From NCBI GenBank assembly GCA_000293845.2, contig ALYF01000002.1, positions 248,001 to 312,000 of the forward strand: a DNA stretch of 64,000 nucleotides, in the 5' to 3' direction. Of the stretch, positions 49,187 through 51,687 are shown piece after piece. Every line of letters starts with the position of its first letter. Within the stretch, counting starts at the first letter, position 1. Made by a program: the position numbers and the translations under genes. Source of the DNA: an alpha proteobacterium IMCC14465. Its GTDB lineage: Bacteria; Pseudomonadota; Alphaproteobacteria; RS24. Below the pieces are notes generated by a model. The model was not told the DNA's origin and searched no databases. It saw only the letters and a program-made list of their open reading frames with translations.

Positions 49187-50251
49187 ATGACCCAGACCTT
49201 AAGAAAAATCACAATACGCGCCGAAAGCTACAGGCTTATAAAGCCTTTTACCATTTCCCGCGGTTATAAAAACACGGCAGATGTTGTGGTTGTAGAGATT
49301 AATGACGGCGCGCTGACGGGACGCGGGGAATGTGTTCCCTATGCACGATATGGCGAAACTCTTGAAAGCGTCACAGCTGAAATCGAAACCATTAGACCCA
49401 TGCTTGAAGGCAGCACAGCCGGATTAAACGCGACCTCAAACCACCCTTTGAACCGTGATGACCTACAAACTGCCATGCATCCCGGTGCCGCAAGAAACGC
49501 CATAGACTGCGCCCTTTGGGATCTGGAAGCCAAGCAGAACAAGCAAACTGTTCCAGACAGGCTAACGCTTCACCCCCGACCTCTTTCCTCAGCCGTCACC
49601 GTGACACTCGACACGCCAGCCAAAATGGCTCAAGTAGCGAAGCAAGAGGCAGCGAAGCAAGTTTCGCATCAAAGTTCTGATAAAAATAAACTGGTCAAAA
49701 TTAAGCTCGGCGGCGCCGACGGCATTGCCGCTGATATTGGTCGCCTCAGTGCCATTCGCGATGCCGTACCGGAAGCGGCTCTCATCGTCGATGTGAATGA
49801 AGGCTGGCATCCGCGCGATATAGTTTCTCATGTCGAGGCGCTTAAATCTTTTAATATTGATCTGATTGAACAACCCTTGCCAGCTGATAATGATGACATT
49901 CTTAAAGACATCGACTTGCCCTTTTGCGCGGATGAGTCGGTGCATGATAGCAGCGACCTCTATCATCTTAATCCCGGCTATACTTGCGTGAATATCAAAC
50001 TCGATAAAACGGGCGGCCTGACTGAGGCGCTTAAGATGCTTCATCTTGCCCGTGATAAAAATTTAAAAGTCATGGTCGGTTGTATGGTTGCGTCTTCACT
50101 ATCCATGATGCCGGCATATTATCTTGGTCTGCAGGCCGATTATGTCGACCTAGATGGCCCGCTTTGGCTAGAAAAAGACCATGAGAACGGGCTGGTATAC
50201 TCCCAAGGTGAAATCATTTTACCAACAACTCCGCTCTGGGGCTGGGATTGA
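49187..50251 (+). CDS. dipeptide epimerase, enolase superfamily (L-Ala-D/L-Glu epimerase-like)
   Basis: A 354-residue muconate-lactonising-subgroup enzyme. N-terminal capping domain to about 125, then the barrel with acid/base lysine in LVKIKLGG, metal ligands in VDVNEGW, IEQPLP and CADESVHD, and the second lysine in NIKLDKTGGL. These match L-Ala-D/L-Glu epimerase, which recycles murein peptides, though other dipeptides are possible. An internal duplication of the string GCGAAGCAAG at about 49637-49662 encodes an AKQEAAKQ linker, an unusual insertion before the barrel lysine. Confidence 0.88.
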   Translation: MTQTLRKITIRAESYRLIKPFTISRGYKNTADVVVVEINDGALTGRGECVPYARYGETLESVTAEIETIRPMLEGSTAGLNATSNHPLNRDDLQTAMHPGAARNAIDCALWDLEAKQNKQTVPDRLTLHPRPLSSAVTVTLDTPAKMAQVAKQEAAKQVSHQSSDKNKLVKIKLGGADGIAADIGRLSAIRDAVPEAALIVDVNEGWHPRDIVSHVEALKSFNIDLIEQPLPADNDDILKDIDLPFCADESVHDSSDLYHLNPGYTCVNIKLDKTGGLTEALKMLHLARDKNLKVMVGCMVASSLSMMPAYYLGLQADYVDLDGPLWLEKDHENGLVYSQGEIILPTTPLWGWD

Positions 50252-50361: not shown

Positions 50362-50400
50362 TTGACTATTACATCTTATTATTGATAATGATTATCAATA
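50362..50400 (+). promoter_or_regulatory. Fur box overlapping a sigma-70 promoter
   Basis: The 21 bases at 50380-50400 form a perfect palindrome with 10-bp arms around a central G; the core GATAATGATTATC is almost the classical iron box. A -35-like TTGACT (50362-50367) stands 16 bases before GATAAT (50384-50389), so the -10 lies inside the operator. Iron-bound Fur should block this promoter. The first gene downstream is the 65-residue protein at 50433. Confidence 0.8.
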
Positions 50401-50432
50401 GCAACTAATAAGCAGGTATTTAAGGTATTCTC

Positions 50433-50630
50433 ATGACACGGATTCACATCCCTTCACATAAAATGATGGCGTTACTTGCCCGCGATTGTGACAAACAAAA
50501 TTGGCTAGAAACGGCCCATAATATTGTGGCTTTCGAACCGTCCCCTCCGACGCTTCAAACGCAACCAAAATTCAAAAAATACCCCGCAAAAATCATTCCT
50601 TTTAATAGCTTCAAAGCCTCAAAACCCTGA
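50433..50630 (+). CDS. small basic protein of unknown function under a Fur box
   Basis: I do not recognise these 65 residues. TAAGG 7 bases before the ATG and the Fur-controlled promoter 40 bases upstream argue that it is a real gene. It is basic, with an N-terminal part rich in His and Met (MTRIHIPSHKMMALLARDC), then a Pro/Lys-rich tail (PSPPTLQTQPKFKKYPAKII). There is no signal peptide or membrane segment. It does not resemble HemP or Bfd. It may be an iron-stress small protein or a leader for the hydrolase gene, which starts 52 bases after its stop. Confidence 0.6.
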   Translation: MTRIHIPSHKMMALLARDCDKQNWLETAHNIVAFEPSPPTLQTQPKFKKYPAKIIPFNSFKASKP

Positions 50631-50682
50631 CTTGCATAATGGGCATATTACATTAGAGTTTGGGACATGCTTTGGACACGAA

Positions 50683-51687
50683 ATGACTGATATCGACTGG
50701 ACATCCCCCCGCATTATGGACCTGCCGGATTTACGGATGGCTGTATTTGAAGCCGGGTCGCCCTCACCGTCACGTCCGTCCATTATCCTGTGTCATGGCT
50801 TTCCCGAAATCGCTTATAGCTGGCGGCATATTATCGCCCCGCTTGCAGAATTAGGCTTTCATGTGGTTGCACCGGATTTACGAGGTTTTGGCGCGACCGG
50901 TAATCCGTTAAACGACTCGGGTGATGCCGCATCTGTTCCCCTGTTTGATATGCCGCATTTATGCGATGACATGGCACATTTGCTCGATGCGCTTAATTTG
51001 GAAGAGGCAATTTTCGCGGGCCATGATTGGGGCGGATTTGTTGTCTGGCAAATGCCATTTTACCAACCTGAACGCACAAAGGCAGTGATTGGCATTAACA
51101 CGCCTTTTATGCCGCGGCAGGACATGGATCCGATAGAAATTTTCAAAGCTATTTGGGGAGAAGACTGCTATTTGGTTCGGTTTCAAGATTATGGCATTGC
51201 CGAGAAAATTCTTAATGAAAATCCACGCAAGACTTTACTCGCGTCCTATCGTTCGCCATCGGGAAGTAATTTTAATGGTGACGACGCGGCTCAGAAAATG
51301 TGGAAAAATTTTGAATTGCTGAACATTCTTAAGACAGATGAAACACAATGGCCCGGTCACCAGCTTCTGCCGGATGATGAATTTCAGCCCTATATTGATG
51401 CATTCACCAAAACCGGGTTTCGTGGCGGGGTAAATTGGTATCGTAATTTTACCCGCAACTGGGAACTCAGCGAGAATTTTCCCGATAAAATAGACCTCCC
51501 CTGCCTGATGATTTGTGCCGAAAAAGACCCTGTCCTCCCCCCCGCCATGGCAGATATTATGCCAGCGCATATCGCAGATTTGGAAATCAAGCTGATTAAA
51601 GACTGCGGACATTGGACACAATCAGAAAAGCCAGCAGAACTATTTGGCTTCATGAAAGACTGGCTAGACAGAAGATTCCCTGTATAA
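50683..51687 (+). CDS. alpha/beta hydrolase, epoxide-hydrolase-like
   Basis: A 334-residue soluble hydrolase from the ATG at 50683; an upstream in-frame extension overlaps the small Fur-linked gene and lacks conserved sequence. The oxyanion motif HGFPE (38-42), the nucleophile aspartate D115 in AGHDWGG and the late CGHWTQSEKP histidine identify the epoxide-hydrolase/haloalkane-dehalogenase group. HGxP favours epoxide hydrolase. The cap domain has the WGEDCYLVRFQDYG type of sequence and a tyrosine candidate in NWYRNF. It may be iron-regulated with the preceding gene. Confidence 0.88.
   Translation: MTDIDWTSPRIMDLPDLRMAVFEAGSPSPSRPSIILCHGFPEIAYSWRHIIAPLAELGFHVVAPDLRGFGATGNPLNDSGDAASVPLFDMPHLCDDMAHLLDALNLEEAIFAGHDWGGFVVWQMPFYQPERTKAVIGINTPFMPRQDMDPIEIFKAIWGEDCYLVRFQDYGIAEKILNENPRKTLLASYRSPSGSNFNGDDAAQKMWKNFELLNILKTDETQWPGHQLLPDDEFQPYIDAFTKTGFRGGVNWYRNFTRNWELSENFPDKIDLPCLMICAEKDPVLPPAMADIMPAHIADLEIKLIKDCGHWTQSEKPAELFGFMKDWLDRRFPV

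Follow-up and report, generated by a model that had tools for sequence, protein, structure and literature searches.

In Bacillus subtilis, the iron-sparing response includes three Fur-regulated small basic proteins, FbpA, FbpB, and FbpC, whose biochemical action is still unexplained in a review of the field (PMC7430163). Among alphaproteobacteria, Caulobacter crescentus encodes the Fur-repressed hypothetical small proteins CC0681 and CC0682, for which an iron-sparing role has been suggested, and a Fur-repressed transcript of this organism has been proposed to yield small RNAs together with two small proteins (PMC3751524). We analyzed a locus of the alphaproteobacterium IMCC14465 that resembles both systems in its description, within a window of 64,000 nucleotides (the whole stretch of DNA under study). 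The anatomy of its operator, the conservation of the locus, the sharing of the operator with a wider regulon, and selection on its first open reading frame point with high confidence to a Fur-repressed iron-starvation unit, in which Fur would bind the operator, the promoter would respond to iron, and two genes would be cotranscribed. Its features are as follows.

50362..50367, + strand: −35 hexamer TTGACT (in related loci, CTTGAC or CTTGC is found about equally far from the box)

50380..50400, + strand: predicted Fur operator, the perfect 21-bp palindrome TATTGATAATGATTATCAATA, with its 7-1-7 core at 50383-50397

50384..50389, + strand: −10 hexamer GATAAT, inside the operator

50433..50630, + strand, stop codon included: gene for a basic microprotein of 65 amino acids, assigned from dN/dS and orthologues

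50683..51687, + strand: epoxide-hydrolase-type alpha/beta hydrolase of 334 amino acids, probable second gene of the unit, assigned by alignment with EPHX2

A preliminary description of this DNA had placed a palindrome with an iron-box core over the −10 element of a TTGACT/GATAAT promoter. We found both exactly where it put them, the palindrome overlapping GATAAT and the two hexamers separated by a spacer of 16 nt. The 21-mer is the sole perfect 10-1-10 palindrome in the 64-kb window, and an independent-base model predicts ∼4e-6 copies of it per genome. Its 7-1-7 core, TGATAATGATTATCA, is the only site in the 1.92-Mb genome that matches TGATAATNATTATCA without a mismatch, where ∼0.013 would be expected. 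The gene carries what is looked for in a Fur-controlled gene, a 7-1-7 TGATAATNATTATCA operator overlapping its promoter. The box is conserved in two congeners and across much of the family.

We then asked which other genes carry such a box. The genome encodes both Fur and Irr, and it contains 32 core sites with two or fewer mismatches, compared with 5 for a reversed control. Scripted placement against ORFs put the majority of these sites inside coding sequence; the noncoding ones include sites at bfd, a ferritin-domain (bacterioferritin-like) gene, a TonB-dependent receptor, and irr (genes identified by Pfam, irr by NCBIfam). The bfd box has a single mismatch (C3:356725), and the irr site and another before an ORF without assignment (L039) consist of A/T only and are weak evidence. 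A shorter degenerate core pattern was uninformative, as its matches across many genomes were no commoner than those of the control. We then combined the boxes that relatives have at this locus with those at bfd into a degenerate operator pattern. Across 28 family genomes, this pattern gave 29 strand hits at 25 places vs. 2 control strand hits. These places comprise this locus (15), bfd (4), TonB receptors (3), ABM-domain genes (2), and a solute-binding-protein gene (1). Hits at this locus and at bfd are expected, because the pattern was derived from those two; the remaining six places are independent, and unexplained hits are nearly absent. The same operator thus precedes recognized iron genes within the same genome group, which supports its membership of an iron-type regulon in the family, and the box at 50380-50400 very probably belongs to Fur, judging from these comparisons. 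The two ABM-domain genes (L145 and L139) may encode haem-degrading monooxygenases.

The regulator could instead be a manganese-type Fur (Mur) or Irr. Irr is encoded, and the genome's Fur is closest to the structures 5fd5/5fd6, which we take to be Fur of Rhizobium leguminosarum, also described as manganese-responsive Mur. However, bfd, TonB receptors, and other iron-type genes lie behind the same box, and we noticed no manganese transporter at the sites inspected; we consider control by Mur or Irr improbable and iron-responsive Fur the preferred regulator.

The first gene of the unit specifies a protein with a computed pI of 9.9 and one cysteine. Its description as basic and Pro/Lys-rich was correct, whereas His/Met richness is marginal (3 His and 3 Met of 65 residues); a ribosome site is present as described, but where it had been called good, it is only a modest AAGG in the window (GAGG in two orthologues). 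Full-length orthologues, 54% identical, occur in two congeners, of which one is Rhodobiaceae bacterium UBA6963. They occupy the same position there, flanked by a DgcA-like epimerase gene and the hydrolase. In our window, the upstream neighbor (49187-50251) scores 395.6 bits, just under the cut-off of 400 for N-acetyl-D-Glu racemase DgcA. The DNA alignment of the congeners has no gaps within the ORF and several in its flanks, and the three pairs formed by IMCC14465 and the two congeners have Nei–Gojobori dN/dS ratios of 0.20, 0.30, and 0.14, values that are rough because synonymous change is high (pS 0.6–0.7). Residues 1–16 and 50–65 are conserved, with few amino acid changes, and the middle is free to vary.

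The small protein is present in 13 of the 28 family genomes. Ten of these belong to the sister genus g4, whose members are more diverged and stand behind the same box; there the box is followed by an ORF of 54–62 codons, typically MTR...AKVV.L.P...ARILPFTKSRAGG, with dN/dS of 0.16–0.31 among five members. Lengths are 54–65 amino acids, and the pI, computed for seven members from g1 and g4, is 9.9–12.0. We based our profile on 11 of the 13 (three from g1 and eight from g4), which it matches by construction. The other two (in G023 and G025) lay outside the profile and were found by it at the protein level; only afterward was a box seen ∼40 bp upstream of each, with two mismatches in G023 and one in G025. 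The g1 and g4 forms share their place, the box, an MTR start, the center, and a C-terminal motif at 13–25% identity, from which homology is likely rather than certain. A search for homologues beside Fur boxes, proposed in the preliminary description as a check, found reading frame, box, and −35 element kept in relatives; the lack of frame-conserving homologues that would have told against the proposal was thus not what we saw. By these comparisons the ORF is a real protein under selection, and it is very probably a genuine iron-starvation protein, because switch and protein have been kept together in relatives.

Fur-controlled RNAs are common. There is a slim chance that the transcript is mainly a regulatory RNA of this kind (RyhB-like) and that the ORF is incidental or dual-function, as the Caulobacter transcript, proposed to yield small RNAs and two small proteins, might suggest (PMC3751524). 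Against this, an Rfam search gave no match, no terminator was seen after the ORF, and synonymous sites diverge freely, in contrast to the conserved amino acids of the two ends.

Database searches bore out the claim that the 65-residue protein is unrecognized. Neither Pfam nor NCBIfam gave a match for it at E values up to 1, and a PDB profile search returned only two hits, near E = 1 and neither credible. HemP and Bfd, both discounted earlier, were rejected here as well: no HemP family model matched up to E = 1 (Pfam, NCBIfam), and Fer2_BFD does not match the protein, whereas it does match the genome's real bfd. The latter resembles our gene in being small and in standing behind a box much like the one described here; it differs in being a separate gene with its own box elsewhere and a Fer2_BFD domain, compared with the one cysteine and missing domain match of the 65-aa protein. 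An AlphaFold model from two sequences (mean pLDDT 66.5) places helices only at residues 8–20 and 24–30 and did not suffice for a fold search.

Over a length of 314 residues, the product of the downstream gene can be aligned with the epoxide-hydrolase domain of human EPHX2 (E ∼1e-64), with catalytic positions kept. The Asp in HDWGG, the acid Asp in AEKD, the His in CGHW, and a pair of lid Tyr residues align with their EPHX2 counterparts. With the catalytic set present, its sequence agrees with the earlier reading as an epoxide-hydrolase-like gene. Compared with soluble epoxide hydrolases, which it resembles in the EPHX2 alignment, it differs in the Fur box before it, found in only part of the family. 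Its ATG lies 52 bp beyond the small ORF, no terminator was seen between the two, and in g4 the downstream gene begins within a few bases of the small ORF's stop, an arrangement that makes cotranscription likely. Several genomes keep the hydrolase but have no box before it, and therefore, iron control of the hydrolase is not a fixed feature. A role of the short ORF as a leader peptide or translational coupler that serves solely to set expression of the downstream gene is very improbable: it is first in the unit and, in g4, nearly abuts the next gene, but both amino acid ends are under selection, G025 (L114) keeps the small protein and box intact with its hydrolase cut to an 83-aa fragment at 1815-2063 (possibly a draft-assembly error), and G008 lacks the small ORF but has the box and the genes that follow.

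We propose that, when iron is plentiful, metal-loaded Fur would sit on 50380-50400, cover the −10 element, and block the promoter. When iron is short, Fur would leave, and the basic microprotein would be made, probably from the same message as the hydrolase. The microprotein may be a basic adaptor, disordered over most of its length apart from a short helix near the N terminus, and bearing the motif (A/P)(R/K)(I/V)(I/L)PF at its C terminus. It might help to spare iron through action on RNA or on a protein partner, which is what has been proposed for FbpA/B/C. Such a role is our best guess, made by analogy with FbpA/B/C and CC0681/CC0682 (PMC7430163, PMC3751524); both are likened to it by description and not by sequence. 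With FbpA/B/C it has in common small size, basic character, and a position behind a Fur box; they differ in belonging to another phylum, in that no FsrA-like RNA was identified here, and in that the gene here fronts a hydrolase. CC0681/CC0682 are likewise Fur-repressed small proteins of an alphaproteobacterium, but candidate small RNAs lie between their genes, and such a neighborhood was not seen here. That the microprotein is a basic iron-sparing protein working like FbpA/B/C is possible, if unlikely; were it so, the Bacillus Fbp proteins would have a counterpart among alphaproteobacteria. Also unlikely is the broader proposal that it represents a new family of Fur-controlled basic microproteins, confined to one alphaproteobacterial family and sparing iron as RNA- or enzyme-binding adaptors.

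The locus offers a concrete candidate for an iron-starvation microprotein in an alphaproteobacterial family of small genomes, and natural losses (G002, G015, and genus g6) are available for comparison. G002 (L059) has lost the box along with most of the small gene, of which a 13-codon C-terminal remnant is left in front of an intact hydrolase. In five other genomes (G010, G011, G013, G015, and G016), the hydrolase has neither box nor small gene in front. Judged from these genomes, the small gene is dispensable, although several family genomes are incomplete drafts, and absences are therefore not all secure. A class-wide profile search of 385 genomes (few of them of this family) found no credible member outside the family; three weak matches there were rejected, with no box nearby. 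In G008, the box directly precedes a different, secreted-looking small protein, the one that in g4 stands farther down the unit (see below). In four g3 genomes (G007, G014, G017, and G019), it precedes another small ORF (ADLVFEMWHRGDER...FIIGALGQA; L063, L067, L078, and L124), two of which were tested and had no Pfam match. The g3 ORFs were rejected as members: the profile misses them, and the one computed is acidic. In g4, a conserved secreted-looking small protein (ECPVPYSEFEENIPHIDM...GFCRLVMDG; no Pfam or NCBIfam match in the one tested) lies within this compact unit, between the small gene and the hydrolase, at L074, L076, L077, and L079.
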